This document shows positions 31,148 through 49,439 of a stretch of 64,000 nucleotides of DNA, in pieces; the stretch's first letter is position 1, and each line of letters begins with the position of its first letter. The stretch lies in contig JAFCGI010000001.1 in NCBI GenBank assembly GCA_017608235.1, positions 65,423 through 129,422 of the forward strand, read 5' to 3'. This DNA is from Candidatus Pacearchaeota archaeon. GTDB lineage: Archaea > Nanobdellota > Nanobdellia > UBA10117 > JAFCGI01. The position numbers and the translations under genes are program-made. The notes under the pieces were generated by a model. The model was given only the letters and a program-made list of their open reading frames with translations. It had not been told where the DNA came from and searched no databases.

Positions 31148-31900
31148 ATGAAGATACGAAAAAATGATAAAGTTTTGTTAATTGGGCCTGAGAATTCAAG
31201 ATTTATTGTAACTGTTGATAAAAAAGAGTTTTCTAGTAAATATGGTCAAATAAGTCTAGGTAAATTAATTGGTAGGGATTATGGATTTAAGATTAAAACT
31301 CATATTGGAAAAGGATTTATAGTATTGGAGCCTAGATTTTCTGATTTGCTAGGTAGAGCTAAGAGAGGGCCACAGGCAGTTCTGTTGAAAGATGCTATGG
31401 CTATATTAGCATATACTAGCATAGATAAGGATTCTAGTGTGGTAGATGCAGGATTAGGATCTGGATGGTTAGCTAGTTTTTTGGCAAGATACGTTAAGAA
31501 AGTGATTAGTTATGAACGAAGAAAAGAGTTTGTTAAAATCGCTAAGAAGAACATTGATTTTTTTAATATTAAAAATATTAAAGTAAAAGAAAAGGATGTA
31601 TATAATGGTATTTCTGAGAAGAATTTAGATTTGATTACTTTGGATTTGCCTGAGCCTTGGAAAGTACCAAATATTTCTAAGAATTTGAAATCTGGAGGAT
31701 ATATAGTAGCTTATCTGCCTACGATAAATCAAGTTATTGAGTTTAGAAAACATCTAGAGGAAGATAAAAACTTAATGATAGAGAAAGTTATTGATATTTC
31801 TGAAGAGTATTGGATAGTTAGCAAGAAAGTAGTTAGACCAGAGTCTCAAACATTAGGACATACTGCTTTTTTAGTGTTTGTTAGAAAAATTAGTAAATAG
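31148..31900 (+). CDS. trmI: tRNA (adenine-N1)-methyltransferase TrmI (m1A57/58)
   Basis: From the ATG at 31148: MKIRKNDKVLLIGPENSRFIV...RAKRGPQAVLLKDAMAILAYTSIDKDSSVVDAGLGSGWLASFLARYVKKVISYERR. The listed 31073 start would overlap secF. Confidence 0.85.
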   Translation: MKIRKNDKVLLIGPENSRFIVTVDKKEFSSKYGQISLGKLIGRDYGFKIKTHIGKGFIVLEPRFSDLLGRAKRGPQAVLLKDAMAILAYTSIDKDSSVVDAGLGSGWLASFLARYVKKVISYERRKEFVKIAKKNIDFFNIKNIKVKEKDVYNGISEKNLDLITLDLPEPWKVPNISKNLKSGGYIVAYLPTINQVIEFRKHLEEDKNLMIEKVIDISEEYWIVSKKVVRPESQTLGHTAFLVFVRKISK

Positions 31901-32594
31901 ATCCATTGAATTCTATTTCTTGGGATTTAAGATATAAAGAATAATTCAAATATTGTTTTGAATCTTGCTCTATTATTGTGTTGTTACAGATGATTTTTAT
32001 GAATCTCTTGTTATAGAAATCTGTTAAATGGCTACATAAATTATTTGGAAAATCTTCTTCTGCTAAGTAAGAAGTAGTTATATTTTCTGAGTTTCCTAAT
32101 CCAGAGGTTCTGTATGCTGGGACTGTGGCAGATGCATAGCCATAATAAATATAATATTGTGATAGATTTCCAGTAAAACTAGCTTGGAAACTTATATTAC
32201 AGGTTGGAGGGTTATCATATGAGATGTTTGAGTTTATTTCTGTATTATTTAAATCTGTAATTCTTATTTCTTTAGTACAATTTGAAATATGTGCTGCTGG
32301 CAGAGTTACTTGGATTTCTATAGGATTTATGATTCCATTGGTTTTTGTTATGTTTGCTTGTGTTCTGTAATCCCATGAGAAGTTCCACCAATATTCATCT
32401 AACCATAGATTTCTTTCTTTTATAGAAGTTATAGCATTTTCTAGTTCTTGTGTTGAAGTATAGTGGTCTTCCACAGAAATAAAGCATATTGGTTTTATGT
32501 AACTATAGATTGTTATGAATGAGAGAGCTATCACTAAGATTGTGATTAGGAATATTTGACCTTTTTTTCCTTTTATTTTCATAGTGCACTCCAA
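31890..32594 (-). CDS. secreted/pilin-like protein with DUF2341-like domain
   Basis: N-terminal KGKKGQIFLITILVIALSFITIY; WWNFSWDYRTQANITKTNGIINPIEIQVTLP resembles DUF2341; several N-x-S/T sequons. Confidence 0.6.
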   Translation of the reverse strand: MECTMKIKGKKGQIFLITILVIALSFITIYSYIKPICFISVEDHYTSTQELENAITSIKERNLWLDEYWWNFSWDYRTQANITKTNGIINPIEIQVTLPAAHISNCTKEIRITDLNNTEINSNISYDNPPTCNISFQASFTGNLSQYYIYYGYASATVPAYRTSGLGNSENITTSYLAEEDFPNNLCSHLTDFYNKRFIKIICNNTIIEQDSKQYLNYSLYLKSQEIEFNGSIY

Positions 32595-33019
32595 ATATAT
32601 AATTTAATTGTTACAGGATCTGATGATTTTGAGTATGTGTAAAATATGCTATGTATATTTTTATTATCTAAGTCAGAAGATCCACAACTTCTTCCTATAG
32701 AATAACAAGTATCTTGATAATAATATTCTGTTTCAAACATTATTGTTTTAGGAAGTTCTTTTTGTATGTAAAGATCTATTGTTGTAAAGTTTGAGTTTGT
32801 GATATTGTTAGCAAAATTATTTTCTAATAAGTGTTCTTTATCAAGATTATATAGTGTATTGTAGCCTATTTTTTTAAGATTCTGAGATTCTGGAATTTTA
32901 TTTACATCACAAGTTATTGTAAATACAGATGCAAATAATGCTAATAACAAGAGAATTACTAATATTTCAATTGTGTAAACATATGCTTTTTTTGTTTTTA
33001 TTATATTTGTTTTTACCAT
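32579..33019 (-). CDS. prepilin-like protein
   Basis: Short basic leader then KKAYVYTIEILVILLLLALFASVFTI; overlaps both neighbours in the pilus operon. Confidence 0.55.
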   Translation of the reverse strand: MVKTNIIKTKKAYVYTIEILVILLLLALFASVFTITCDVNKIPESQNLKKIGYNTLYNLDKEHLLENNFANNITNSNFTTIDLYIQKELPKTIMFETEYYYQDTCYSIGRSCGSSDLDNKNIHSIFYTYSKSSDPVTIKLYIWSAL

Positions 33020-34671
33020 GATACTATTTCTATGTAAGCAGGAAGTGTTTCATTTTCAGTTATTATTCTGCCTTTTGTTCTTAGATTGCAGTAGCTTTGT
33101 TTTCTTGGAATAACAGCACCGATTTTTTCTCTTAACAGAGTGTTTCCTAGGTATATTGGATATTCTCTTCCTGTATTTGGGTCTTCAAAAATCATGTTTC
33201 TAATATAGTTTATTTCTGTAGCGTTTTCAACGACAATTGTGATAGAGTCATTGTCTCCTGCAGGTATATCCCAATCTAAGATTATTGTAGTTCCATTGCT
33301 AGTGTATGTGGAGGTGTTAGTATCTTGTGCTTCTAAGCTGTAGGTATAATTTACAAAAGAAGCATTTGAAAATGGGAAGAAAAGTTCTAGTTTTAGTATG
33401 GAATCATAATCTGCATTTCTTCCTGCGATTACTGTAAGGTTTGAGTTTGATCCCTGTCTGTATAAATTTGTGGTTGGAAGTATTGGGGAGTATGGTCTGA
33501 TTACTAAATTGTTGCTTGCTGCTAGTGTTCCATCAGCACCATCATTAGGAGTTACATCATAGCTCCAAGTTTCCCAGTGATCTGTCATAGAGCTATGTAT
33601 TTCTGTATTATTTTTATTGTAGAGAGATTTTATTTGATCTGCAGTTAGTGCAGTATCCCAAATTCTTACTTCATCTACTGTACCATTAAAATAAAAATTT
33701 GGACTAACTGTACACCAGTCTGCAATCATTGTTTTTCCTGATGTAATAGATGTCCAACCAGAACCTCTAGTTGAGCTTGATTTATAATTTCCATCTATAT
33801 AGAAAGTATATTTGCTGTTTGCTTCTTTATCATACACAAGAGCTGCATGATGCCAGCCTCCACTTAGTACTCCACCACTTAAATAAAATTCAGTGGATGT
33901 GTTACCAACTCTTGCTTCAATGCTTCCTGTATTAGTTATATATATGAGATATGCGTCGTCAAAACCACTACATCCATTTATTCTGTTTTTACTAATTATT
34001 CCGCCCCATGTTCCTGCAGGTCCTAGTTTTTTGAATCTAAGTGAAACAGTAAATGAGCCTGGAATGTTTGTGCTAGAACCACTAAAGTCAATTCTATCAC
34101 CATTGCCATCGAATAGATATGCACCTCCAATATATCCATTAGAAGTCCAAGAAGTATCACCAATTAAAGTACCATTATTTTGGTTTCCAGAATAATCTTT
34201 AGCAAGACTTGTTGTATTTGTGTCAAAAGGTGTGTTTAGTGCTGTTAGAGAATTTCCATTTTTTTTCCAGTTTATTATATGAGTTATGTTATCTCCATCA
34301 GGATCTGTGCTTGTAATATATGCAGTTAGGTTATCTGTTGTTAAATTATATATGGTGGTTGCATTTAGTTTTGCGGAAGTTATTTGTGCTGCTGCAAATC
34401 CGGTTAAGAGGTTTTGTTTTGATAATTGGAAGAAGGAGCTGGGAATTAAACCATCCCAGCTCTTCTCTGCGCCCAATGAGTTTGAGTTTTGATTTAGGGT
34501 TAATAATCCTTGAAGTAAAGATATAGAATTGCTGTTTGTGTTTAGCTTGTTTTGAATGTTTATTTTTATTATGCTATCTGGAGTTAATTCAGATGCAAGA
34601 GATAAAGAATTGAGTAATATGATTAAAGTTAGGAATGCTATTACTTTTTTTGTTTCTTTTCTGATTTCCAT
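33013..34671 (-). CDS. secreted LamG/concanavalin-like domain protein, candidate pilus adhesin
   Basis: Signal-peptide-like N-terminus; SLAKDYSGNQNNGTLIGDTSWTSNGYIGGAYLFDGNGDRIDFSGS...VDEVRIWDTALTADQIKSLYN is a clear LamG pattern. Confidence 0.75.
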   Translation of the reverse strand: MEIRKETKKVIAFLTLIILLNSLSLASELTPDSIIKINIQNKLNTNSNSISLLQGLLTLNQNSNSLGAEKSWDGLIPSSFFQLSKQNLLTGFAAAQITSAKLNATTIYNLTTDNLTAYITSTDPDGDNITHIINWKKNGNSLTALNTPFDTNTTSLAKDYSGNQNNGTLIGDTSWTSNGYIGGAYLFDGNGDRIDFSGSSTNIPGSFTVSLRFKKLGPAGTWGGIISKNRINGCSGFDDAYLIYITNTGSIEARVGNTSTEFYLSGGVLSGGWHHAALVYDKEANSKYTFYIDGNYKSSSTRGSGWTSITSGKTMIADWCTVSPNFYFNGTVDEVRIWDTALTADQIKSLYNKNNTEIHSSMTDHWETWSYDVTPNDGADGTLAASNNLVIRPYSPILPTTNLYRQGSNSNLTVIAGRNADYDSILKLELFFPFSNASFVNYTYSLEAQDTNTSTYTSNGTTIILDWDIPAGDNDSITIVVENATEINYIRNMIFEDPNTGREYPIYLGNTLLREKIGAVIPRKQSYCNLRTKGRIITENETLPAYIEIVSW

Positions 34672-34695
34672 TGGACGCGTTTTAGTTTAAATTAG

Positions 34696-35088
34696 TTATT
34701 GTATGGTATCATTTATTCCAAATTTGAAAGCATAAACCTGATATGAGATTTGGAAGTTTCCATCTATTGGAGTAGAGTTTCTTATTTTTGGATATTTATG
34801 TTCCTGGGCTTTTTTCCATTTTTCATAAGAAATATCATAAAATTTTGAATTATTCATTAATCCAAATCTAGATAATGAAGAGGAATTTTCCCAATTGAAT
34901 GGTTCTCCTTGTTCTTTAAGAATTATAGCTTCTAATGTTTCTGATTGTATACATGCTTCTTCTAGGTTTGTGCTTCTTAATTCTGAACTTAGATTTGAGA
35001 TGAAAGTTATAGAGATGTAGCTGAGTATTACTATGAAAAAGAACATTATTACTATGTATTCTATAGAGGTTTGGGCCTTTGATTTCAT
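34696..35088 (-). CDS. archaeal-type prepilin (class III signal peptide-like)
   Basis: MKSKAQTSIEYIVIMFFFIVILSYISITF carries the QTSIEY motif. Confidence 0.7.
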   Translation of the reverse strand: MKSKAQTSIEYIVIMFFFIVILSYISITFISNLSSELRSTNLEEACIQSETLEAIILKEQGEPFNWENSSSLSRFGLMNNSKFYDISYEKWKKAQEHKYPKIRNSTPIDGNFQISYQVYAFKFGINDTIQ

Positions 35089-35093
35089 TTTAA

Positions 35094-36248
35094 TTATTCT
35101 GAGATTATTGATTGTACTATTGTTCGACTATAAGTTTCATAATTTACATCAACCTGCAGAGTGAAGTTTCCATATCTTAGTGGTGTTTCAAGTATTTTCT
35201 CAAATTTACCATCAGAATCTACCTTTAGTTTATAGATTTCTTCATCTTCTTCTCCCTTTGGAAAGATAATAGTTATGTCTGCTCCTTCTGAAGGAATTGT
35301 TTCAAGATATACATCACCTTTTACTACTATTCCTTGTTCTGGAGCTACAGTTGTTGGGGTAATATAAACATCTGCTACGAATTCTGCTGGATATATAAAT
35401 AGGAAAAATACAAATAATCCTGCTGAGAGCATTATTCCAATATGTTTAATTCCTGCTTTGACACTATCTTCGGTTATTTGGCCTGAGATTAGTCCTGCAC
35501 ATATTCCTTGAACTAGGATCATTAGCAAGAATAGATTTTTGAAATCCATTAGAGAAGGCATTTCTCCCCCAGCCATTCCAAAAAGCATTCCTACTCCAGC
35601 AATTTGTTGTGTGAATAAAATAGGAACTAATACTCTTTGTATTGCAATTAAAACGCCAAGGAACAGAATGAAGATAATATACATCATAAACATATGTTGT
35701 TTCATTAAAGATCTTCGGTCTGCTTCTATTTCTTTTAGAGTTCGAATTTGTTCTGCTAAAGCATTTAAAATATCTACTATGTTTCCGCCAGATATGAAAG
35801 CTTCATGAATTATATCGTTTACTCTTTTGATTAAGTTGCTTTTTCTTAATCTGTATGTAAATTTAGACCAGGCTTCTGGAAAAGGTATGCTCCAAGATAG
35901 CCAAATATTTAGTTGATGAATATATTTTGAGAGTTTTCCATAATTTGTTTTTTCTGCAGTTTTTATTGCTTGAGGCAAAGTCATACCTGCTGCTTTTGAT
36001 TGAGCAAGATCTCTTATGAATTCTGGAAAAGTTTGTTCTGCAGCTTCTAATTCTTGAATTTCAAGATATCCTAAAACAGCATAAGGAGCAGCAGAAATTA
36101 TTCCACCTAGTGTGATTATTAAGATTATGAGTGTATTAGGATAGCCTGCTAAGAAAATAAATATACTTATTAATGAAATTATTACTAGTCCTGAAACTAG
36201 TATTAATGTTCTTATGTCTATATCTTCAAGTGTTTTGTTTATTTCCAT
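35094..36248 (-). CDS. type II/IV secretion membrane protein, TadC/FlaJ (T2SSF) family, with C-terminal beta-rich extension
   Basis: FPEFIRDLAQSKAAGMTLPQAIKTAEKTNYGKLSKYIHQLNIWLSWSIPFPEAWSKF; after the last TM, about 90 aa Ig-like (DVYLETIPSEGADITIIFPKG...FEKILETPLRYGNFTLQVDVNYETYSRTIVQ). Confidence 0.8.
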   Translation of the reverse strand: MEINKTLEDIDIRTLILVSGLVIISLISIFIFLAGYPNTLIILIITLGGIISAAPYAVLGYLEIQELEAAEQTFPEFIRDLAQSKAAGMTLPQAIKTAEKTNYGKLSKYIHQLNIWLSWSIPFPEAWSKFTYRLRKSNLIKRVNDIIHEAFISGGNIVDILNALAEQIRTLKEIEADRRSLMKQHMFMMYIIFILFLGVLIAIQRVLVPILFTQQIAGVGMLFGMAGGEMPSLMDFKNLFLLMILVQGICAGLISGQITEDSVKAGIKHIGIMLSAGLFVFFLFIYPAEFVADVYITPTTVAPEQGIVVKGDVYLETIPSEGADITIIFPKGEEDEEIYKLKVDSDGKFEKILETPLRYGNFTLQVDVNYETYSRTIVQSIISE

Positions 36249-37120
36249 GGTGAGGTTTCTTTTATTATCATTATGAATATGAATGTTATTAATGGAATAC
36301 CAAGTACAACTCCTAAGTATTGCATAAATTGTAGTTGAGATAATGGAATTCCTCCCATAGAAGACATTAATGTGCTCATTACTATTAACAATGAGGATCC
36401 TACAACTACAAAACCAATATAGATTTGCATTATTGTTGAGAGTCTTTTACTATATTCATCAACAACTCTTCTCCTTGCAGCAATTAAACTATGTGCTTTT
36501 TCCTCAAGATATGCAGAAATATCTCCGCCAGTAGTAATTCCAGATTTTAAACCAGAAAGAATTTCTGTCCATTGTGGAGAAGGAGATCTTGCTATTGCTC
36601 TTGATAGTGCTTTTGGTAAATCTATTCCGAGAGCTTCAACATCTTTTGTTATTTTTCCTGATTCTCTTGCAATTTCTTTGTATTCTTTAAATTTTGATAA
36701 TAATTTGAATGCTTCTTGCGGTGGGAAGCCAGATCTTGTGATTGTAGATAAATATATTGCAGCAAATATAAGACTATTATCTATGTCACCTCTTCTTTTT
36801 TCTGCAAGAGTTTTTGGATAGTAATATGCTGTTAAAGATGCAATAAATGCTGCGAGTATTGGAATAGTGAATGTGATTATATTGCTTGATGGTCTGAGTT
36901 CTGGAAATAATATAAACAGGTAAAAATATACAAAAAAAGAAGCAGCTATTAATGTGATTGGAAATACAAAAATAATCATTGCAAGATATTTTTCTGGAGA
37001 AACATCTATGTTTGCTGCTTTTAGATTATATTTTACAGTAGGAAATATTGGTTCTAATTTTCTTACTATTGGCATAAAGATTTGCGATGCATAGTAATAG
37101 ATGTCTTTTTTGTTAGCCAT
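36239..37120 (-). CDS. type II/IV secretion membrane protein, TadC/FlaJ (T2SSF) family
   Basis: SLIFAAIYLSTITRSGFPPQEAFKLLSKFKEYKEIARESGKI...TEILSGLKSGITTGGDISAYLEEKAHSLIAARRRVVDEYSKRL. Confidence 0.82.
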   Translation of the reverse strand: MANKKDIYYYASQIFMPIVRKLEPIFPTVKYNLKAANIDVSPEKYLAMIIFVFPITLIAASFFVYFYLFILFPELRPSSNIITFTIPILAAFIASLTAYYYPKTLAEKRRGDIDNSLIFAAIYLSTITRSGFPPQEAFKLLSKFKEYKEIARESGKITKDVEALGIDLPKALSRAIARSPSPQWTEILSGLKSGITTGGDISAYLEEKAHSLIAARRRVVDEYSKRLSTIMQIYIGFVVVGSSLLIVMSTLMSSMGGIPLSQLQFMQYLGVVLGIPLITFIFIMIIKETSPWK

Positions 37121-37124
37121 TTTA

Positions 37125-40100
37125 TTATTGAATTGTTGTTTTAGTTTGGCGCTTATTTTTTTCTTTTGAAATTTTTATGAGTTTGAATAATTTGTTTTGG
37201 TCTATATAGTAGGTATTTATTGTTTTTGCAGCGTCTAAGAAACTATGTAATTTTTCTTCCTGCATCCATTCTATTATTTTTACTCTTTTGAGAATTTCAT
37301 TTTCTATTTGTTTTTTAGTCCAACCATGTTTTTCTGCAATTTTTGCTAGATGATAGCTGTTTTTGCTTATGAATTCATCTGTAGAAGGTTTCCATTTGAA
37401 TGTCTCATTAGTCTTTATTTCTTTCTTTATACGATCATAGCCTTCTAGTTCTATTATACTTCCTACTTTTCTTGTGAAGTGGCCCATTTTTTTTGCTCTT
37501 TCAAGAAAAACTATAATATCCAAATTTTGGAGTAATGATGCTGGAAGATCTATTGGTTTTGTAGTTAGTCTGTCTATAACTGCTTCTACTGTGTCTGCAT
37601 GTAATGTGGATAAGCCAGGATGGCCCGTATTATGCAAAAGTATACCACCAAAACCTCCAATGAAATTTTGTGTTCCTGGAACACAGAGATCATATACTGA
37701 TTCTTCTTTTGGCAGAGAAATATTGTTTATTTCTTTAACGGTATCAAGATATATGTCTTTAATTGTATTTTTATCTTTTTGTTCTTTTTTGTATTTAAAT
37801 GGATATTTTAATTTTGTATATTTTATGAATTCCTCTATGTATTTTGTTTTATAGATGCAAAGATTATAAACTGGAACATTTGTTCCTTTTGTTTTTTTAA
37901 TATTGCATACAATTCCAAGAGTTAATAATAGATATGCTAAATCATTTGCTAATTCTCTTGAAGATGTCCAATAACTAATATTTTTTTTATTTATGCTTCC
38001 GTTCCCAAGCCATAGTGCTTTTAGAAATTCTCCTATTCTTTGTTTTGAGAGTCCAAATATGAAAAAAGGAATTTTTCTATGTTTACTATTGTCTCCGCAA
38101 TATTTTTTCAGAAATTCAAATAATACTTTATTACTGAAACTTAATTCCGTTGATATACCAAAACCCTTTGTTAGTCTTTCTTTTATTTTGCAATCTAATG
38201 AATAGATACATTTTTTCATATCTTTTAGAATAATTGGATTTTTATTATATAGGGCTATTCTATTATTTTTCTTTGCTTTGTTAAGACTTCCTTCTGCGAT
38301 GAAATAACCTAAGAATCTTAGAAATTCGTTTGTTATTTTTAATTTTGCAGATAGTGTTTTGCTTTTTTTATCACCTTTTATTTTTAATTTATTTAAATCA
38401 TATTTGATTTTTGCTAGTTTCATTAGTTCTTCGAATTTATTAGCTTTGAGTGCTGAGAAGTGTTTTCTTGCGTAACAGTCTGATATTGTTTTTAAATTAG
38501 TGATTTTGCATGCTTTTTTATAGCCTATTTTTCTAACAGCATCTTTAATTAAACTAGGTGCTATTACTCTGAGATTTGGTAGAAGTTCTATTAAGTTTAG
38601 ATGTTTTATATTTTTGAAATTGCAAGGAAGTTTAGCAGGAATTGCTATTTTATCTCCTTTTTTAAGGTTGTCTACTACTACTCCTTTTAATTCGTTATTT
38701 TCTATTGTTAAAAGTGAATGATTTATTGTAGAAATAACTTCTCTACCTGTTTTTGTTTTGATCATAATTAAATTTGATCTTGGGCTGTGACTTTGACAAT
38801 CTTTTAGGTTAGCTATTGTTATTTCTCCAGGATTTTCTGAAAAAGTTGGTACTTTGTAATTTTTTGTGTCTTTAATTTGATTTATATTTTGTATTCTTGG
38901 AAAGCCTTTGTTATCAATTACGTATGTTTTTTCGTTGCCTTTAATTGATGCCATAGCCTGGAACATTACAGTTGCTTCTTTGCCTCTGACTTCTCCTACT
39001 ATTATATAGTCTGGACGTTGTCTCATAGATGCTTTTAGTAAATCAAACATGTCTACTTGCCCATAACCTTTTGCTCCAAATCCAGATCTTGCTACTTGTG
39101 GTAGCCAGTTGATTCTGGGAATTTGAAGTTCTGCTGTGTCTTCTATTGAGACTATTTTTAATCCTGGAGCTATAAACAAACATAGACTATTTAGTAAAGT
39201 TGTTTTTCCTGTTGCTGTTGATCCTGCTATTAAGATAGATTTTTGTTCTTCTATCATTAGCCAAAGATAAGCTAGTATTAAAGGATTAAGAGTTCCGAAG
39301 TTCAGAATATCTATAGGTGTTAGTGGAATTCTGAAGAACTTTCTGATGCTGAAGTTTGAACCCTTTCTTGCTATGTCTGTACCATATGTTAGTTGAAGTC
39401 TTGAGCCATCAGGAAGTGTTGAATCCAAAAGAGGGGTGGCAACAGAAATAGTTCTTCCAGATTTTTGGGCAAGTTTCATTACAAAAGAATCCATGTCATC
39501 CTTTTTTATGAATGATATATTTGTAGGCATTTCTGAATATAGTGGATTTCTATGAAATATAAATACAGGAGACTTTATTCCATTGCAACTTATATCTTCT
39601 ATATTTGGATCATGCATTAAAGCTTCAACTCTACCTAAGCCAATAGTGTCTCTGAAAATATAGTATTTTGTTTTAACTATATCTTGAGGCTTTAATTTTA
39701 TTCCAAGATATTCCCAGATTTCATCTATTTTATTATCTATGTAAGTATAGACTTGTTTTTTTATTGCTAAGCTGCTAAAATCTATTTCAAGTCTTTCTTT
39801 TAATAATTCGGAAGTTTTGTCTATGATTTTTCTTAATCTTATATCTATTTTAGGTTCGAGTACTTCATAGATGATATCATTTAATTGCTTATTATAATGT
39901 ATGTAAGCGAATGCTACAGGGATTACTTTTTTACCTATTTTTATTTTAATTAAGGGGTAGGTTTCTGAGATGGATTTTATTTTTTTAGAAATATCATCTT
40001 TTGCTTCTAGTTCTAGAGCTTTTTTTGTAGGTAAGCTTATTCTGAATTCTTGGTTTTTTTGTGAATTTGATTTAGCTGTAGCTATATTGGGCGCAGTCAT
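37125..40100 (-). CDS. type II/IV secretion system ATPase (VirB11/FlaI/KlbA-like), intein-containing
   Basis: ILIAGSTATGKTTLLNSL (Walker A), RPDYIIVGEVRGKEATVMFQAMA (Walker B region), TGHPGLSTLHADTVEAVIDRLTTKPIDLP after the intein. Confidence 0.93.
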   Translation of the reverse strand: MTAPNIATAKSNSQKNQEFRISLPTKKALELEAKDDISKKIKSISETYPLIKIKIGKKVIPVAFAYIHYNKQLNDIIYEVLEPKIDIRLRKIIDKTSELLKERLEIDFSSLAIKKQVYTYIDNKIDEIWEYLGIKLKPQDIVKTKYYIFRDTIGLGRVEALMHDPNIEDISCNGIKSPVFIFHRNPLYSEMPTNISFIKKDDMDSFVMKLAQKSGRTISVATPLLDSTLPDGSRLQLTYGTDIARKGSNFSIRKFFRIPLTPIDILNFGTLNPLILAYLWLMIEEQKSILIAGSTATGKTTLLNSLCLFIAPGLKIVSIEDTAELQIPRINWLPQVARSGFGAKGYGQVDMFDLLKASMRQRPDYIIVGEVRGKEATVMFQAMASIKGNEKTYVIDNKGFPRIQNINQIKDTKNYKVPTFSENPGEITIANLKDCQSHSPRSNLIMIKTKTGREVISTINHSLLTIENNELKGVVVDNLKKGDKIAIPAKLPCNFKNIKHLNLIELLPNLRVIAPSLIKDAVRKIGYKKACKITNLKTISDCYARKHFSALKANKFEELMKLAKIKYDLNKLKIKGDKKSKTLSAKLKITNEFLRFLGYFIAEGSLNKAKKNNRIALYNKNPIILKDMKKCIYSLDCKIKERLTKGFGISTELSFSNKVLFEFLKKYCGDNSKHRKIPFFIFGLSKQRIGEFLKALWLGNGSINKKNISYWTSSRELANDLAYLLLTLGIVCNIKKTKGTNVPVYNLCIYKTKYIEEFIKYTKLKYPFKYKKEQKDKNTIKDIYLDTVKEINNISLPKEESVYDLCVPGTQNFIGGFGGILLHNTGHPGLSTLHADTVEAVIDRLTTKPIDLPASLLQNLDIIVFLERAKKMGHFTRKVGSIIELEGYDRIKKEIKTNETFKWKPSTDEFISKNSYHLAKIAEKHGWTKKQIENEILKRVKIIEWMQEEKLHSFLDAAKTINTYYIDQNKLFKLIKISKEKNKRQTKTTIQ
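37629..38948 (-). mobile_element. 440-aa in-frame intein with LAGLIDADG (DOD) homing endonuclease domain
   Basis: N-extein ...VMFQAMA | SIKGNEKTYVIDNKGFP... (Ser1); block B GREVISTINHSLLTI; DOD helices FLRFLGYFIAEGSL and IGEFLKALWLGNGSI; C-terminal SVYDLCVPGTQNFIGGFGGILLHN | T+1 GHPGLSTLHAD. Confidence 0.9.
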
Positions 40101-40175
40101 ATCTTAGAAGTATGTATTTTGCATTAAAAAAGCTTACTTAATGTTTAGAAATCGTAGTTATTATAGAGTAACAAG

Positions 40176-40601
40176 CTAAGATAGAATGATTTTATCTTTT
40201 TCAGGAGAATATTCTAGTGAGATTTTTTGATTTTCTGAAAATGCTAATCCTTGAGTGCTTTTATTCCAGGTTTTTATGTTATGTATTTTGGAGATTGCTT
40301 GTGTTCCTCGAATGTCTATTTTAGTTTTGTTTCCTAATAAGGAAATTTCATAAGAGTCTTTTCCAATTTCTGCTGGAATTGGTTTTGAGATTTTTATATA
40401 ACCATATTCTGAGAATATTTTTAAATTTTCTATAGAGTTTTCTAGGTTTTGATTTTCTAGAGAAATTATTTGTTCTCCTGATTTTTCTATAACATTTTTT
40501 TCTATTCCTTCATAAGAGATTATTATTAGTGCAAGTACTGTAATACTTATTATGGAAGAGATTATTAGAAAAAAAGCACTAAAAGCAGTTTTAGATTTCA
40601 T
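40176..40601 (-). CDS. prepilin-like membrane-anchored protein
   Basis: MKSKTAFSAFFLIISSIISITVLALIIISYEG; small soluble C-terminal domain; in the operon. Confidence 0.5.
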   Translation of the reverse strand: MKSKTAFSAFFLIISSIISITVLALIIISYEGIEKNVIEKSGEQIISLENQNLENSIENLKIFSEYGYIKISKPIPAEIGKDSYEISLLGNKTKIDIRGTQAISKIHNIKTWNKSTQGLAFSENQKISLEYSPEKDKIILS

Positions 40602-41121
40602 AGGATTTGACCTCTATTATTTGATAGATTGTTTCTGAACATGGAGAGGTGGTTATGTTTTCTTGTTTGTATGAGAGATATATATTATTATAGGTGTTTT
40701 TTGATAGAGATAAAGTGTTTTTTAATTGAATACCATAGCAATTATCTGCTGTAGGATCTTTATATTCTAGGACAACCCTATTAGAGTTTGAACCTATTTT
40801 AGATAGGCTATCTTGATAAAAATTAGCATAATTAGATTGGGAATTTCGCTTTATGAATTCTATTTTATTTGTGGTGATGATAAGATCTTCATCATCTTCT
40901 AGAAAGAATTCATAAGGACCTTTTTTACTTTGTTCGCGGGCAGAGTCTTGTATAAGCTGATTTATTTCGTGAAAGTTTAATTCGACTGTATTAAGTCTTT
41001 TTTTATCTTGGCTTTCTTTTAGTGTGGTTCTTGCAAACACTAAAGATATTGTAAGTATGGATATTATCATAATTAATACTAAAAGATATGAGATCATTGC
41101 TTGGGCTTTTTTTTTAGCCAT
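40591..41121 (-). CDS. prepilin-like protein
   Basis: MAKKKAQAMISYLLVLIMIISILTISLVFA; KAQxxISY resembles class III signal peptides. Confidence 0.6.
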   Translation of the reverse strand: MAKKKAQAMISYLLVLIMIISILTISLVFARTTLKESQDKKRLNTVELNFHEINQLIQDSAREQSKKGPYEFFLEDDEDLIITTNKIEFIKRNSQSNYANFYQDSLSKIGSNSNRVVLEYKDPTADNCYGIQLKNTLSLSKNTYNNIYLSYKQENITTSPCSETIYQIIEVKSYEI

Positions 41122-41171
41122 ATTAATTATATGTGTTTAGAAGTTTAAAAACTTGTAGATTTTGAATAAAA

Positions 41172-41711
41172 TTAGAGTTCTATTGAGGATATTATTTGAC
41201 CAAATCCGCAAGGAGTATCAAAATAAATATTATAATTTATACTTCCTGATTCTGCGGTTAGAGAACAAGCACTCCCACTTAAATTAAATTTTAATTCTAT
41301 AGCATTATTAAATGAGGTATTACAACCAGTTGTACAATCTATGTCACCAGAGACCCCGTTTACAGGCTCATTAAAACATATATCCCAATTATCTAAATAA
41401 CGTCCGTTTTCGGTTTGTATACTAAAATAAGTATCATTATCATTGCTTTCATAAATTGTTTCAGCTGTAGATCTTAGATTTGTTAGTTGGACTGTTAGCA
41501 CATCTGTGGTGCTATTATATGTATTTCCTGAAACTAGAAATTTTGAGCACATTCTTGATTGACCTTCTTCATTTATTGTGGATTCTAGTTCTGCTACACT
41601 TTCTTTTCCGTATTCTAGAACAACTCTTGTACCTAGTATAGTTATGAGTAAACTTATGGTTAAGACTGCTAGCATTTCTATTATTGTAAATGCTTTTTTG
41701 GAATTAATCAT
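41172..41711 (-). CDS. bacterial-type (FTxxE) prepilin
   Basis: MINSKKAFTIIEMLAVLTISLLITILGTRVVLEYG; Glu at +5 if cleaved after KKA. Confidence 0.7.
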   Translation of the reverse strand: MINSKKAFTIIEMLAVLTISLLITILGTRVVLEYGKESVAELESTINEEGQSRMCSKFLVSGNTYNSTTDVLTVQLTNLRSTAETIYESNDNDTYFSIQTENGRYLDNWDICFNEPVNGVSGDIDCTTGCNTSFNNAIELKFNLSGSACSLTAESGSINYNIYFDTPCGFGQIISSIEL

Positions 41712-41784
41712 ATTATTATTTTAGAAATTGTTGATATATATTTGTTTTGATATTAGATAAAAGAAAAAGAAAAAATGCATGGGA

Positions 41785-42297
41785 TTATGCTGCATTTGTT
41801 ATTGCGTTACTTGTTGCATAATTACCAAGGTTATTTTTATCACATACAACGTCATTACTATCTTGAGCTGCAGTTAATACTACTTTTGTTACATTGTCGC
41901 TAAATGTTAAGTCCCATATACCATCATTATATGATACACCACCTTGTATCCATACAGATCCATTATATCCTCTTGCGGCACCGCTTCCATTTAATATTGT
42001 ATATTGTCTAAGTGGACATCCAGAGCTAGAATCTATTCTCCAACTAGTGTTTACTGTGGTAATACTTACGGTGTTTTGATATTGACCATTTTCACAATTC
42101 ATTACTGCTGTTGAAAAACCTGAGGACCAGCTATAACAGCTAGCTGCTTGCGTACCTTGATTTTCAGTTAGTATTAATTGGTCTGGTACAGACTCTAATG
42201 CTCCTCTTAAAAAAGTTATAGCTATACTACTTAATACTGCTATAATAGTCATAACTACTACTAATTCCATTAATGTAAATGCTTTTTTATTTACCAT
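41785..42297 (-). CDS. bacterial-type (FTLMEL) prepilin, candidate abundant pilin
   Basis: MVNKKAFTLMELVVVMTIIAVLSSIAITFLRGAL; strong Shine-Dalgarno AAGGAGGAAAAATG. Confidence 0.75.
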   Translation of the reverse strand: MVNKKAFTLMELVVVMTIIAVLSSIAITFLRGALESVPDQLILTENQGTQAASCYSWSSGFSTAVMNCENGQYQNTVSITTVNTSWRIDSSSGCPLRQYTILNGSGAARGYNGSVWIQGGVSYNDGIWDLTFSDNVTKVVLTAAQDSNDVVCDKNNLGNYATSNAITNAA

Positions 42298-42378
42298 TTT
42301 TCCTCCTTATTTTTATATAATTCTTAGTTTAGTATTGAGTAGTTGCTTATTATTTATATATATTTCTCTAGGATTAAA

Positions 42379-42873
42379 CTATACTACTCTTGCTGGAATT
42401 TGTCTATATGTATATGTTTCGCATCCAGATAGTGTTAGATATAACCATGATGCTTTTTCTTGTGCACATCCAGGTACTTCTGCACTAGTATTTCCTATAC
42501 AAGCTACTATAGACCCTGTGGCATTCTTACATGTTAGATTGGAAGTACATATACTATATTCTGTGCTGCTAGAATTTTTAAGATAATCTATTTCTACAGC
42601 ATAAGGTTCAGTTAATAATTCAAGACCGTCTTTAATGGATGGTATAGTGAATGTATAATTATTTGATGTTTCATTATAGGAAACATTAATATTTTCTATA
42701 TCTTTCATTATTTCTTCAGTATTTTCATAGCAATCTGTCTGGTTTGTGGATTTGTCAAGGGTTGTTCGTCCAAATGTTATTACTAATGTATATAGAGTAG
42801 CTATTATTATAGTAGTGATTACTAATTCAATTATTGTAAACGCTTTTTTATTATTCTTTTCTTTTAATTTCAT
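42379..42873 (-). CDS. bacterial-type (FTIIEL) prepilin
   Basis: MKLKEKNNKKAFTIIELVITTIIIATLYTLVITFGRTTL; internal Met at 42873 preferred because it clears the overlap with 42878-43396. Confidence 0.7.
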   Translation of the reverse strand: MKLKEKNNKKAFTIIELVITTIIIATLYTLVITFGRTTLDKSTNQTDCYENTEEIMKDIENINVSYNETSNNYTFTIPSIKDGLELLTEPYAVEIDYLKNSSSTEYSICTSNLTCKNATGSIVACIGNTSAEVPGCAQEKASWLYLTLSGCETYTYRQIPARVV

Positions 42874-42877
42874 ATGG

Positions 42878-43396
42878 CTAAAATGTAAATTTGAATACAT
42901 CAATTTCTTCTCCACAACCTTCTATAAGTAATAATATTTGTGATGCTTGGTTTCCTCCACATATATTTGTACCATTTATAGTACCTATTTTTCCAGGAGT
43001 ACATTCAGTAGATCCACATCTAAGGGTTGCATATTCTTTAATATTATTTTGACATGTTACAATAACATCATTTATTTCATTAGATAGTCTGAAATCTCCT
43101 GCTTGAGAATCTGAATAAGGATGTAGTCCACAACTATTATAATTTGGGATATCGTTAGTGGTATAGATTTTTGTAGAACTGTTATAAGTTATGTTAAGTG
43201 CTGGACAGCCTGAGAAGTCTGGAGCTTCATTATAAATAATTAGTTGAGCATAATCAAATATACATCCTTGTTGGTTTTTATGTTCTCTAATAGCACCTAT
43301 TACTTGTGGTGCTGCAGTTGCTATTATTGTAAATGCAATTGTGATTGCTACCATTAATTCAACTATGAATGATGCTTTTTTGTTTAGGTGCGCCAT
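42878..43396 (-). CDS. prepilin with (S)FIVEL N-terminus
   Basis: MAHLNKKASFIVELMVAITIAFTIIATAAPQVIGAIREH. Confidence 0.65.
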   Translation of the reverse strand: MAHLNKKASFIVELMVAITIAFTIIATAAPQVIGAIREHKNQQGCIFDYAQLIIYNEAPDFSGCPALNITYNSSTKIYTTNDIPNYNSCGLHPYSDSQAGDFRLSNEINDVIVTCQNNIKEYATLRCGSTECTPGKIGTINGTNICGGNQASQILLLIEGCGEEIDVFKFTF

Positions 43397-43456
43397 TTTA
43401 TTATTAGTATTTAGTGTTTTAATTGTTTATTATTTTTTTGATTTTGATAGTTATGA

Positions 43457-43891
43457 TTATGAAGGCATTGGTGCTGATGCTGGAAAGCTTATTTTGGAAG
43501 GCATTATTAAAACATTAAAGTAAGTTCCAGTGCAACCACCAGGAATTGTTGTAGAAATAACACATGAAAATGCTGTGCAAATTTGTTCGCTGTTGACATT
43601 TGAAGTACATACAATATCTTCATTTTGATCAAGTATTTGTACTTCTGATTCTGTAGATATTTTTAGAGTAGGAGCAAATTTTATAAATTCAATACTGAGA
43701 GTGTTTCCAATTAAAACCGCACCTTCATATTGTATTCCAGCCATGCTTTGAGCATTATCGCCTATATTTTCATATATTCTTTGAGGATTTTCTCTGAACC
43801 AAGGAAGAGATATTGAGATACCAAGCAAGATTATAATTACTACTATTACGAATGATATATAGTTTGCTAGGGCTTTTGAGTTGTTTTTCAT
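43457..43891 (-). CDS. prepilin-like protein
   Basis: MKNNSKALANYISFVIVVIIILLGISISLPWF; Met at 43891 clears the overlap with the upstream gene. Confidence 0.55.
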   Translation of the reverse strand: MKNNSKALANYISFVIVVIIILLGISISLPWFRENPQRIYENIGDNAQSMAGIQYEGAVLIGNTLSIEFIKFAPTLKISTESEVQILDQNEDIVCTSNVNSEQICTAFSCVISTTIPGGCTGTYFNVLIMPSKISFPASAPMPS

Positions 43892-43896
43892 TTTAT

Positions 43897-44409
43897 TTAA
43901 CGACACCAAAATGGACAGTGAGATCCTCCATATGCATAAGGTAACCTATAAGTATAATTTGTATTTAGGGGACAATTGGTGAGATTAATTAATCCATTAT
44001 TTGCGCAATCTGTGCAACTTGCTGTACAATATTCTTTAGTTCCATCTGACTTATATACAGTAACTGTGCCACCGTCTTGGATTCTTAATGTAGAGGGTAA
44101 AGGATAAGAATCATTTGGCATGTTAAAATAACCATCAGAGCAAGTTTCTCCAGTATCTAATATCCAGTTTCTAAATTGTTTTTGTTCATTTGTACATGTT
44201 GCAAAATATTGTTGAGTAAGTGGAGGTGTTATTGTATTTAGTGCAGTGTTTCCTGCAGTAGGAGCTGTTGGATTATATATTCCATTAGTAGTAGCTTTAG
44301 TTTTTTCTATAATATCTTCTTTGTATGTACGCTCAACAATAGTAGTGCTAGCTAATACAATTAATATTAATACTAAAATAGAGATTATGTTTGATATAGC
44401 TTTTTTCAT
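43897..44409 (-). CDS. prepilin-like Cys-rich protein (paralog of 44465-44947)
   Basis: MKKAISNIISILVLILIVLASTTIV; CSDGYFNMP...CTASCTDCANNGLINLTNC...CPFWC. Confidence 0.6.
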   Translation of the reverse strand: MKKAISNIISILVLILIVLASTTIVERTYKEDIIEKTKATTNGIYNPTAPTAGNTALNTITPPLTQQYFATCTNEQKQFRNWILDTGETCSDGYFNMPNDSYPLPSTLRIQDGGTVTVYKSDGTKEYCTASCTDCANNGLINLTNCPLNTNYTYRLPYAYGGSHCPFWCR

Positions 44410-44464
44410 TGTTTTATATTTTATAATTAGCTTTTGAATTATTTATTTCTTTTTATTATTATAT

Positions 44465-44947
44465 TTAACATGTGAATTTGCAGGTAGCTTCATTGCCTTC
44501 GTAAGTAACTTTATATTTTATAGTGTAAATTAGTGAGTTTGCAAGACTGCAGTTAGAGAGATTTAATAAACCATTGTTTCCGCAATCACTACAAGTTACT
44601 ATGCAGGTTTCAAAAGTCTTATCTGGATATTTAACTATAGTATCACTATTGTTTATAACTTCTCCAGATAAGTATGTGAAGGTTGCAGGAGGCATGTTGA
44701 AAGATCCATCATTACATTTTTCATTGTATTTTAATTGGTAATCATGAATTGCTGTTATGTCATGAATACAGAGTTCTTTTGCTTTGGTGCTGGGAAATAA
44801 TGTATCTAAAACTTCTTTGTGTTTTATAGATGTGTCTGATGCAAACATATCTATGTTTTCTTTATAGTTATTGTAGAGAATTGCTAAGCTTGAAAGTGCT
44901 ATTAATATTATTATGCTCATAGAAATTAGATGTGAGGCTTTTTTCAT
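44465..44947 (-). CDS. prepilin-like Cys-rich protein (paralog of 43897-44409)
   Basis: MKKASHLISMSIIILIALSSLAILYNNY; CNDGSFNMP...CIVTCSDCGNNGLLNLSNC...CKFTC. Confidence 0.6.
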   Translation of the reverse strand: MKKASHLISMSIIILIALSSLAILYNNYKENIDMFASDTSIKHKEVLDTLFPSTKAKELCIHDITAIHDYQLKYNEKCNDGSFNMPPATFTYLSGEVINNSDTIVKYPDKTFETCIVTCSDCGNNGLLNLSNCSLANSLIYTIKYKVTYEGNEATCKFTC

Positions 44948-44965
44948 TATGAATCATATGTATTG

Positions 44966-45442
44966 TTAGGCTATAAAGCTTACTGGTACAGAATGTATGT
45001 TATTTGGTTGGAAGATTATTTGGGCAGATATTTCTCCAAGATTAGTTAGATTGCATACTGGGATTGTAAATTCGTTGAAAGAGTTTTCTTGAATAATTAT
45101 TTCACCAGTGGTATTACATATTTCTATTATACATTCTGTTCTTGTTGTGCTGATATCTTTTAGTATAAGAAGAGATTCTGGATCATAGTTTCTACAAGCA
45201 AATAATTTTGTAGTACCTTTATTTTCAGCTTTAATAGTAAGATTTAATACTGAGGAATCATAAGAAGGATTTGATAATATAATATTGGTTTCTACTTGGG
45301 CAAATACATTATCTGCTTGATCTTTGCTTATGGATGTGAGTTTGTCTCTTTCTATAGCATACCAAACAGAAACTATTGAAAGTAAGAAAACAGTTAATAA
45401 AATAATTAAAGAAAGAGAAAGAGTCTGGGTTGCTTTCATCAC
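44966..45442 (-). CDS. prepilin-like protein
   Basis: MMKATQTLSLSLIILLTVFLLSIVSVWYAIERDKL; beta-rich C-terminus with Cys residues. Confidence 0.55.
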   Translation of the reverse strand: MMKATQTLSLSLIILLTVFLLSIVSVWYAIERDKLTSISKDQADNVFAQVETNIILSNPSYDSSVLNLTIKAENKGTTKLFACRNYDPESLLILKDISTTRTECIIEICNTTGEIIIQENSFNEFTIPVCNLTNLGEISAQIIFQPNNIHSVPVSFIA

Positions 45443-45942
45443 TCAGATGTTAGATAGAATAGATATCCATCTATATTTGTTGGTTTGAATGTTAATAGTA
45501 TTTTTGTGTTTACTCCAGATGACACTGCATTTATGCTACAGTTTAGATCTCCACTTGCATTAAGTCCACAGCAAGGAAGCGAAATTTCTAGTTTTTCTCC
45601 TGAAAGTGCACCATTATGACTAAAATGGCCATCACAATATACTTGGTCGCCTTCTATTGATACTACTTGGTATGTACTGGCGTTAGAGGAGTCAGCTTTT
45701 ATTGTTGTAGTGCCTACATTTTTGAAAGTGATATTTATTGGGTTTACTCCATCTTGAGCTATAACTCTTAATGAGCCAGCTAATGCTTGAGATACTTGTA
45801 TGTCTGTAGCCTGTGATTGGGCAGCACTTGTTTTTTCTTGAGATGATTTCCAACTTACTCCTGCTGCTGCTGCAATACCTAAAACTATTAATACTAACAT
45901 TAATCCGCCTACTAAGTTTGATTGTGCTTTTTTACTTATCAT
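45439..45942 (-). CDS. archaeal-type prepilin-like protein
   Basis: MISKKAQSNLVGGLMLVLIVLGIAAAAGVSW; CDGHFSHNG motif; 4-bp overlap with the next gene. Confidence 0.6.
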   Translation of the reverse strand: MISKKAQSNLVGGLMLVLIVLGIAAAAGVSWKSSQEKTSAAQSQATDIQVSQALAGSLRVIAQDGVNPINITFKNVGTTTIKADSSNASTYQVVSIEGDQVYCDGHFSHNGALSGEKLEISLPCCGLNASGDLNCSINAVSSGVNTKILLTFKPTNIDGYLFYLTSE

Positions 45943-45999
45943 TTTTAATCCTCTTTTTGTTTAAATTAGGAATTGTTCCTTTTTTTATGTTATTTAGTA

Positions 46000-46500
46000 T
46001 TATCTGGTGAGGAATATTGATAGAGGATACTTTATTTCTTTTAGTGCTATATAGTCTCCTTGATGAAATCCAAGAATTATGATTACTGTATTATTTACTT
46101 GAGAATCTCTGTAAGATGTTAGATCACAGTCAGAGATTAGTATTGTACCTTTTTGCTGTTTTGGAATTTCTGGGGAATTAAAGTGTCCATCGCATATTTT
46201 TTTTTCAGATTCTTGTTTTATGAAGTATGTGCTGGATGAGTTTTTAATTTTGATATCTCCTTGATTAAGTATTGTTATATTAATAGGATTTCCTGCGGTT
46301 CCTATTCCTGTGATACTTAGTGTTTCAAGATTGTGAGAAAGATATCCAGCAACTTTTTGATCCACTAGCTGAGTGCCTGCTGCAGTCAAGTCATCTACAG
46401 AGTTTTTTTGAGTATCATTAAAAAATACAAATATGGAAATCATGATTAAAGTTATGGCTAGAAATCCTAGTGTGTTTGCTGCAGCTTTTTTTGATTTCAT
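46000..46500 (-). CDS. prepilin-like protein
   Basis: MKSKKAAANTLGFLAITLIMISIFVFFND; CDGHFNSPEIP motif shared with 45439-45942. Confidence 0.55.
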   Translation of the reverse strand: MKSKKAAANTLGFLAITLIMISIFVFFNDTQKNSVDDLTAAGTQLVDQKVAGYLSHNLETLSITGIGTAGNPINITILNQGDIKIKNSSSTYFIKQESEKKICDGHFNSPEIPKQQKGTILISDCDLTSYRDSQVNNTVIIILGFHQGDYIALKEIKYPLSIFLTR

Positions 46501-46534
46501 GATATAATGATTAAATAAGAAAAAAGTAAAAAAT

Positions 46535-47107
46535 TTATGTTGCGTAAGCTATAAACATTGCTGTTGCTTCTACACCATCAGGTTCAAAAGTGGTTTCTAC
46601 TGTTATTCTCTTATTTATGTTGTTATTTAGTCCTTCATAACAAGTGGTGTTTGTTAGATTTAGTTTAATTCTTCTAGAATCATGTCCTGGAAGATCTTCA
46701 CTACAACCTTCATTACATTCTATATAGCTATTTGATCCATCTCCACACCATTTAACTGCTGAACAAATTGGATCTAAATCTTCATCTAGAATATTTGTAC
46801 GCGTTGTTGAAATTCCTTCTGCACATATGTCTCTAATTTCTCTTAGAGTTGTTCTACCATTATTAACAACTGTGAATTCCATTCCCCCAGAATCATTATC
46901 ATATACTACATTTTCTATAGTTATTGCTTTTCCATATTTAGCAGTTTGTGCATCTACTTGTTCAGTACCTGCTGCCTGAAGTCCAGAACTCATTTTTGAG
47001 AACCAGATGAATGCTGCTCCAGCAGAAGCTACAGCTAACATTAGTAATAATAAAACCGCTAAAATTGGAGAGATACCTTTCTTTGATAAAAATAAGTTGC
47101 CTTTCAT
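46535..47107 (-). CDS. archaeal type IV pilin N-terminal domain protein
   Basis: MKGNLFLSKKGISPILAVLLLLMLAVASAGAAFIWFSKM, the classical archaeal KKGISPxLAVLLLL pilin start. Confidence 0.75.
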   Translation of the reverse strand: MKGNLFLSKKGISPILAVLLLLMLAVASAGAAFIWFSKMSSGLQAAGTEQVDAQTAKYGKAITIENVVYDNDSGGMEFTVVNNGRTTLREIRDICAEGISTTRTNILDEDLDPICSAVKWCGDGSNSYIECNEGCSEDLPGHDSRRIKLNLTNTTCYEGLNNNINKRITVETTFEPDGVEATAMFIAYAT

Positions 47108-47176: not shown

Positions 47177-47683
47177 TTAACGATATTGATAGAGATTTAG
47201 GAATGATTTTAATTCATTATAGAAGTCCCAGCCTTCTTTCCAAAGTTCTCCTTTTAGTTGTTCTAGTGTAGATTTATAGAGATATTTATCATAAAAACCT
47301 TTTAAGAATTTAAAGAAAGGGCTTTTTTCCCAAGCATCTTCATAATCAGTTACTATATAAGCAGTTATGAATATATTTATTTCACCTTGATTCATTTTTA
47401 TGTCTTGGCCTGCCTGCTGTACTTTGACGTCATTAATTCCAAAGAGCTGCCATTTAACTTTAATTACAAATCTAGAATATTCATCTATGTCGCGTATAGC
47501 TTCCCATTTGATTTCAAATTCTTTGCCTTGAGGTTTTACTTTTTCTGTATATTTAGCTTCATATACATCATATTTGTACCATTCAAGCCAATTATGAGCA
47601 TGCTTATATACTTCATCAAAATCAAAGATTATATTTTTAACTTGGATTCTTTGATCGGTAAGTAATTCAATCTTTTCAGACAT
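47177..47683 (-). CDS. uncharacterised 168-aa protein
   Basis: Intact ORF with balanced composition, aromatic-rich (YKHAHNWLEWYKYDVYEAKY); no family recognised. Confidence 0.6.
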   Translation of the reverse strand: MSEKIELLTDQRIQVKNIIFDFDEVYKHAHNWLEWYKYDVYEAKYTEKVKPQGKEFEIKWEAIRDIDEYSRFVIKVKWQLFGINDVKVQQAGQDIKMNQGEINIFITAYIVTDYEDAWEKSPFFKFLKGFYDKYLYKSTLEQLKGELWKEGWDFYNELKSFLNLYQYR

Positions 47684-47786
47684 AGCTAGAACTAAGCTGT
47701 AAGGGAATATAAGTTTTTTGTTAGAGTAAAAAAGCTAGTCGTAAGTTTTTTAAATAATACTGATAACTTTTTGTTATGATTTTAGT

Positions 47787-47793
47787 GGAGGTG
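47787..47793 (+). promoter_or_regulatory. Shine-Dalgarno GGAGGTG for the thermosome gene
   Basis: GGAGGTG 5 nt before the ATG at 47799. Confidence 0.7.
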
Positions 47794-47798
47794 TTAAA

Positions 47799-49439
47799 AT
47801 GAATCAAAATCAGATGCAACCTATTTTTGTGTTACCAGAAGGTACACTAAGAAATTCTGGAAAGAATGCACAGAAGATTAATATAATGGCTGCAAAAGCA
47901 GTTGCAGATACTGTTAGAACTACCCTTGGACCAAAGGGAATGGATAAAATGCTTGTGGATTCTATCGGGGATGTGGTTATTACAAATGATGGTGTTACTA
48001 TCTTAGATGAGATGGAAATAGATCATCCTGCCGCTAAAATGATTGTCGAGATTGCTAAGGTGCAAGAAGATGAAGTTGGAGATGGAACTACTACAGCAGT
48101 TATTTTGGGAGGAGAGCTATTGAAGAATGCTGAAACTCTGATAGATAAGAATATCCATCCAACAGTTATTGCTAATGGATATAAGTTAGCTGCATCTAAG
48201 GCACAAGAAATATTACAAAATTTAGGAACTGATATTTCAGTAAATGATAAAGATATTCTAAAAAATGTGGCTTTGACTGCTATGACTGGAAAAAATGTAG
48301 AGTGGGCAAGAGACAAGCTTGCTCAGATTGCAGTAGATGCTATTTTATATGTGGTTGATAAAGAAGACAATAAAAGTGTGATTGATATAGATAATATAAA
48401 AATTGAGAAAAAAGAAGGTGGCGGAAGCAATGACACTGAGTTAGTACAAGGATTAGTAATAGATAAGGAAAGAGTTCATGCAGGAATGCCTAGATCTGTT
48501 GAGGATGCTAAGATTTTACTTCTTGATTCTGCTCTTGAAGTTAAGGAAACAGAAACAGATGCTAAAATAAGCATAACTAGTCCAGATCAGTTGCAAGCAT
48601 TTATTGATCAGGAAGATAAGATGCTTAGAAATATGGTTGATAAAGTAGCAGCCACAGGAGTGAATGTTTTATTTTGTCAGAAAGGAATAGATGATATTGC
48701 TCAGCATTATTTATCTAAGCAAGGTATTTTTGCAGCTAGAAGAGTTAAGAAAAGTGATATGGAGAAATTAGCAAGAGCTACTGGAGCAAAAGTTATTACT
48801 AATTTAGATGCTATTGAGGAGCAAGATATTGGATCTGCTGGCTTGGTTGAAGAGAAGAAGCTTGGTGGAGAAAACATGACTTTTATAAGAAAATGTGAGA
48901 ATCCTAAGGCAGTTTCTATAGTTATTAGAGGCGGAACAGAACATGTTGTGGATGAGGTTGAGAGAGCATTAAAGGATGCTGTTGGAGACTTAGCTGCAGC
49001 AATTCATGTAGGTAAGTGCGTTTCTGGTGGTGGAGCCATAGAAGTAGAGCTAGCTAAGAAGCTTAGAGAATTTGCAGAAGGCACTTCCGGAAGAGAACAG
49101 CTAGCTGTGCAGGCTTTTGCAGATACTTTGGAGATAATTCCAAGAACTTTAGCTGAGAATGCAGGTTTAGATCCGATAGATATGCTTACAGATCTAAAAT
49201 CAAAGCATGATGAAGGTAATGTTTCTGCAGGATTAGATGTTTTCACAGGGAAAGTTGAGGATATGTGGGCTAAAGGAGTTATTGAACCTTTAAAAATTAA
49301 GACTCAAGCCATACAGTCTGCATCAGAAGCAGCAATTATGCTGTTGAGAATAGATGACATTATTTCAGCAGGAAAACTTGATAAGGATCCTGGAATGGGT
49401 GGTGGAATGCCTCCTCAAGGAATGCCTGGAATGATGTAA
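47799..49439 (+). CDS. thsA: thermosome subunit (group II chaperonin)
   Basis: [64 protein letters not shown]-terminal [15 protein letters not shown]. Confidence 0.97.

Follow-up and report, generated by a model that had tools for sequence, protein, structure and literature searches.

The 64 kb stretch of DNA analysed here (the window) carries, between positions 31890 and 47107, what is probably one archaeal type IV pilus locus. It belongs to a DPANN archaeon, and its set of accessory pilins is expanded. Sixteen ORFs with class III (prepilin-type) leaders are found there on the minus strand, together with one ATPase and two FlaJ/TadC proteins. The initial annotation had described this region as about 16 prepilins with one ATPase and two TadC/FlaJ proteins, and its coordinates and ORFs proved to be exact, with T2SSE and T2SSF matches. 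A leader was scored when a basic residue was followed by G/A/S and then by ~20 hydrophobic residues. By this rule 16/16 small ORFs of the locus matched, all of them on the minus strand within 31890-47107, and none of the remaining selected ORFs of the window did, so that the clustering of pilin genes is far above chance; these counts bear out the view of the locus as a multi-subunit type IV filament cluster with mixed N-termini and exceptionally many pilins. As judged from sequence, the locus is composed of a conserved core, i.e., a FlaI/TadA-type ATPase, a two-gene FlaJ and six core pilins, and of ten extra small pilins (all genes of the locus described below are on the minus strand).

The genome measures 1.2 Mb and is 93% complete, and the window lies on a contig of ~200 kb. 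Contamination was considered and ruled out, since the contig holds archaeal housekeeping genes (thermosome and archaeal-type primase, recognized by inspection), its G+C content is similar and the core pilins are syntenic with those of relatives. The same contig carries a second pilus-type locus ~77 kb away (L113, C19:173000-192900), which contains a 752-aa ATPase, a 691-aa TadC-like protein and its own QIS-type pilins. Hence, the locus at 31890-47107 is not the only pilus-type machine of this genome, and some of its 16 pilins could serve the second one. Elsewhere in the window, a SpoIIM-like membrane protein (27586-28434; Pfam E 8e-11) was observed close to the SecD/SecF genes.

The assembly ATPase (37125..40100; T2SSE E 1e-27) is 51-57% identical to the ATPases of eight relatives, and its best NCBIfam match is FlaI (E 3.5e-121), under the archaellum equivalog cut-off. 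The gene is interrupted by an intein (37629..38948; Intein_splicing E 6e-19, LAGLIDADG_3 E 2e-20) of 440 residues, from Ser385 to Asn824 of the ATPase, which is inserted at the conserved AMA/TGH motif. The intein ends are Ser1, a terminal His-Asn and Thr+1, a LAGLIDADG endonuclease domain lies inside, and the element is absent from the ATPases of all eight aligned relatives. The platform proteins FlaJ1 (36239..37120; T2SSF E 1e-14) and FlaJ2 (35094..36248; T2SSF E 1e-13) align to positions 4-248 and 263-518, respectively, of the 555-position ArlJ/FlaJ model, that is, to its N- and C-terminal halves, and therefore together equal one FlaJ. Archaeal pilus loci with two TadC genes have already been described (Makarova, Koonin and Albers 2016, PMC4858521). 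Although the ATPase and FlaJ families are shared with the archaellum, the FlaJ score, like that of the ATPase, is below the archaellum equivalog cut-off, and the archaellum accessory gene cluster is absent from the locus: no ArlF/G/H genes were found among the locus ORFs, and p01 gave only a weak match to ArlF, far under the cut-off.

No prepilin peptidase gene had been seen in the window, and a count elsewhere in the genome had been recommended; a single match was found, on contig C1 (Peptidase_A24, E 9e-14). Its match to FlaK (E 1.2e-12) was under the cut-off and that to Arc_PepC_II was weak. The methylase domain of the bifunctional bacterial peptidase was not found in this protein, which consists of Peptidase_A24 with a weakly matching archaeal C-terminus, so that by these model matches the peptidase is of the archaeal (FlaK) type.

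We then compared the locus with those of order-level relatives, which carry the labels Woesearchaeota, Pacearchaeota, Nanoarchaeota or DPANN (FlaJ search of named genomes). A contig search with the single FlaJ1 sequence returned nothing, whereas an alignment used as query returned 23 loci, and a FlaJ1 homologue was present in 50 of the 55 genomes searched. Most of the order-level relatives examined encode counterparts of the six core pilins, of the ATPase and of FlaJ1, with the gene order kept, which was the outcome of the synteny comparison in DPANN genomes proposed by the initial annotation. When profiles built from these relatives were run against the 16 pilin sequences, p01 and p12-p16 mapped onto them one to one, with E-values between 7.5e-15 and 2.4e-46 in this search of 16 sequences. 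At one end of the locus, p01 (46535..47107; KKG|ISPILAV; orthologue profile E 5.5e-32) is an archaellin/ITP-type core pilin, which matched the TIGR02537 archaellin/pilin model at 30.7 bits (E 1.6e-7; cut-off 20) and is probably the major pilin. Two more precede the ATPase: p12 of the IGF class (40591..41121; KKA|QAMISY; E 7.5e-15) and p13, which adjoins the ATPase gene (40176..40601; KTA|FSAFFL; E 2.8e-18). The others follow the platform proteins: p14 (34696..35088; KA|QTSIEYI; E 5.9e-32), which also matched Class_IIIsignal under the cut-off (E 0.0018), p15 (32579..33019; KKA|YVYTIEI; E 1.1e-31) and p16 (31890..32594; KKG|QIFLITI; E 2.4e-46). In addition, a stand-alone ITP-type pilin that resembles p01 was observed on another contig (L111, C39:126349) and is possibly an alternative major pilin.

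The closest loci, L019-L031 of order-level DPANN genomes, share the order ITP pilin, IGF pilin, xxxY pilin, ATPase, FlaJ1 and FlaJ2, followed by EYI, FIE and QFF pilins, and often lie beside a thermosome gene. Here too a thermosome gene adjoins the pilus locus (47177-49439), as in many relatives, and a small protein (47177-47683) for which Pfam gave no match seems to recur at the thermosome-adjoining site. These loci differ from the present one in that the same count gives 3-10 pilins and that FTxxE pilins are lacking. The difference resides in the slot between the core pilins p01 and p12, which in most order-level relatives is occupied by one to four large pilins of 450-810 aa, and here by the ten small ones. 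Counted by the same rule, at most 10 pilins were found in any of 61 other loci, against 16 here; as roughly one to three pilins escape the rule in some loci and contig ends cut others, the real gap is smaller than 16 versus 10, yet it persists. The expectation that archaeal pilus loci usually encode one to a few pilins was nevertheless too low, since relatives have up to 10 and loci that combine two TadC genes with 5 or more minor pilins are on record (PMC4858521). By gene content the present locus can be likened to Makarova clades 1 and 2 (PMC4858521), with which it shares the FlaI-type ATPase, the two TadC genes, several pilins with class III leaders and secreted adhesin-like proteins, and from which it is set apart by 16 pilins in one run, four Glu5 FTxxE-like N-termini and the ATPase intein. 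What is unusual is thus the 16-subunit set, with its ten extra small pilins and the four FTxxE-like N-termini, whereas the two TadC genes and the multiple minor pilins were already known.

Among the extra pilins, p02 (46000..46500; KKA|AANTLGF) and p03 (45439..45942; KKA|QSNLVGG) are paralogues by their C-terminal regions (E 7e-10), as are the Cys-rich p05 (44465..44947; KKA|SHLISMS) and p06 (43897..44409; KKA|ISNIISI; E 1.5e-17). p04 (44966..45442; MKA|TQTLSLS) weakly resembles the ITP-type head domain, and p07 (43457..43909; SKA|LANYISF) carries a class III leader, although its true start may be later. The remaining four, p08-p11, carry FTxxE-like, bacterial-type N-termini (4/10 extra pilins). 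p08 (42878..43396; KKA|SFIVELM) has Glu at position 5 and gave no family match in model searches. p09 (42379..42915; KKA|FTIIELV), for which a start later than the listed GTG is probable, reached 18.2 bits with N_methyl (cut-off 21.2) and was below the TIGR02532 cut-off. The clear case is p10 (41785..42297; KKA|FTLMELV), with 28.5 bits for N_methyl (PF07963; cut-off 21.2) and 29.3 bits for TIGR02532 (cut-off 16.3), and p11 (41172..41711; KKA|FTIIEML) is placed exactly at the TIGR02532 cut-off. The description of archaeal and bacterial N-termini side by side holds in that both are present (p01 by TIGR02537, p10 by N_methyl), but only p10 of the four clearly passes the curated models. Furthermore, Glu5 by itself is not diagnostic, because core pilins of the EYI type carry it as well.

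The bacterial-type motif is very rare in this phylum. Across 377 genomes, N_methyl gave three matches in this one, in adjacent genes, and one each in six others, and more than one match was found in none of the other 376. In none of the 61 other loci was an N-terminus of the F/S-x-x-x-E-L/M type seen. This rarity, together with the p10 model matches, favours a reading in which p08-p11 were taken whole from bacteria and a bacterial pseudopilus-like sub-complex was grafted into an archaeal machine. The best match of p10 in a plasmid database points the same way: it is a gammaproteobacterial plasmid protein with a GspH domain (25% identity over 89% of the p10 length), and in a pairwise comparison of the two heads the score was 79, whereas shuffles reached at most 53. 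On this promising match we considered p10 as a GspH-type pilin, but the assignment was rejected, because the GspH profile gave no support: nothing above shuffles was obtained with the heads of p08, p09 and p10, and the Pfam GspH model did not match them either. An AlphaFold2 prediction of p10 from its single sequence reached a pLDDT of only 43, too low to be informative. No match to any family was found for the heads of p05-p10.

The head of p11 gave a different answer. After removal of the helix, it matched the ITP-type head profile with 30.5 bits (best shuffle 15.9; E 7e-8 in a set of decoys and shuffles), and with hhalign the probability was 95% and the score 51 (shuffle maximum 23), which almost equals the result of the true orthologue p01. 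Asn78 and four Cys are invariant in the p11 head alignment. The AlphaFold2 model (mean pLDDT 70) consists of a long helix and seven strands, and its top PDB matches are the M. maripaludis archaellum (5z1l) and the P. calidifontis flagellar-like pilus (8fk7), with which the predicted fold shares an N-terminal helix and an Ig-like beta-sandwich; for both, the Foldseek probability was 1.00, yet the TM-scores were low and the E-values lay slightly over 0.001. The model does not count as evidence independent of the profile, since the modelling alignment contained archaeal homologues. The modelling that had been suggested as a check on the pilin folds thus yielded one reasonably modelled pilin, p11, with an archaeal pilin/archaellin-like fold. 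With this fold and with a prepilin peptidase in the genome, the outcome that the initial annotation had named as refuting its reading did not arise. The profile and fold evidence supports p11 as a chimera, with a bacterial-type N-terminus on a predicted archaeal Ig-like head; such a head is supported for p11 by profile and model, and for p01 because it is homologous to that family.

Acquisition of p08-p11 from bacteria is accordingly rather unlikely. In addition to the archaeal head of p11 and the missing GspH profile signal in the others, all four carry the KKA leader seen in this locus, unlike bacterial leaders, whose conserved last residue is Gly (PMC4471445), the G+C and third-position G+C of the four genes are like those of the neighbouring genes, and the peptidase has no methylase domain. 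The published PibD site is (K/R)(G/A)|(L/I/F)(S/T/A) (PMC7347861), which KKA|FT fits, so an archaeal peptidase could process the bacterial-type pilins. Across 36 bases of N-terminal DNA, p09-p11 show 69-81% identity, a similarity that is compatible with recombination and with convergence alike, since shared residues and AT-rich codons account for much of it. Compared with bacterial GspG, GspH, ComGC and ComGD, then, p09-p11 have the N-terminal FTxxE motif in common, but the head of p11 is archaeal and those of p08-p10 are unmatched to bacterial heads, and in contrast to T2SS/T4P systems the machine is of archaeal type. As to the proposal of a hybrid multi-subunit pilus, its multi-subunit part stands, but a mixture of an archaeal with a bacterial machine is not supported, given that archaeal types were found throughout for the ATPase, the split FlaJ, the peptidase and the six core pilins, that the ATPase, FlaJ1 and the core pilins are conserved in relatives, and that the sole bacterial-type pilin with an assignable head has an archaeal one.

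In the preferred reading, a single archaeal pilus with additional accessory pilins, the one FlaK-type peptidase would cut every leader after Ala or Gly, and the ATPase with FlaJ1/FlaJ2 would push the pilins into one filament. The shaft would be made of p01, perhaps together with its contig C39 paralogue, and the conserved core pilins would form a complex that initiates or anchors the filament. The extra pilins, and with them a secreted LamG/concanavalin-like protein encoded inside the operon (33013..34671; Laminin_G_3 E 8e-20), a candidate pilus-associated adhesin, would be minor subunits or sit at the tip, differ from species to species and determine the binding target of the filament. Tandem duplication (p02/p03, p05/p06) may account for part of the expansion of the extra set, and N-terminal recombination or convergence (p11) for another part.

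An alternative is a bindosome-like or other surface array, in which the leaders would anchor diverse binding proteins through an archaeal secretion ATPase and no single long filament would be made. The many dissimilar Cys-rich heads and the LamG protein within one operon would suit such an array, and class III leaders are also used in the known bindosome (PMC4471445); by analogy, some of p05-p10 may be leader-anchored for other purposes. However, a solute-binding domain was found in 0/16 pilins, and six conserved core pilins with an assembly machine are typical of filament systems, which leaves the array improbable. A DNA-uptake (competence) pilus, part of the initial proposal, is disfavoured and very improbable: several N-termini weakly resemble the ComGC/ComGD models, but these matches are confined mainly to the N-terminal helix, and a search that detected ComEC (PF03772) in 12 of 14 control genomes did not detect it in this genome, which is 93% complete.

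The most likely product of the locus, as predicted from its genes, is a glycosylated adhesive filament. The pilin heads contain 59 N-glycosylation sequons, against 37 +/- 5 in shuffles, and an STT3/AglB oligosaccharyltransferase is encoded in the same window (21697-24300). Around it, close to the pilus locus, a cluster at ~1-27 kb includes glycosyltransferase-like, aminotransferase-like and methyltransferase-like genes. The sequon enrichment together with the STT3/AglB and glycosyltransferase-like genes fits glycosylated surface proteins, and N-glycosylation of the extracellular pilin domains is probable. The most likely function would be adhesion, perhaps to a host cell, by analogy and from the LamG domain; host attachment may be expected from the lifestyle of cultivated DPANN archaea (PMC11291902).

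The machine is a normal archaeal type IV machine, not a new kind, and the locus is a useful case for pilus remodelling. In published structures, bacterial and archaeal pili have the N-terminal helix in common, but their heads are unrelated and their helices pack differently (PMC7347861). With p11 and three further bacterial-type N-termini alongside it, the locus provides a testable case of module recombination between pilus kinds. A further, rather unlikely possibility is that a single archaeal motor builds a mixed filament from bacterial-type Glu5 pilins together with archaeal-type ones, with helices and heads exchanged as in p11; if this is true, bacterial and archaeal modes of helix packing, thought to be separate, would occur within one structure. 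The contrast between a core of six pilins and a variable set suggests a division between subunits that build the filament and subunits that set its specificity, in archaea that are thought to be host-dependent.
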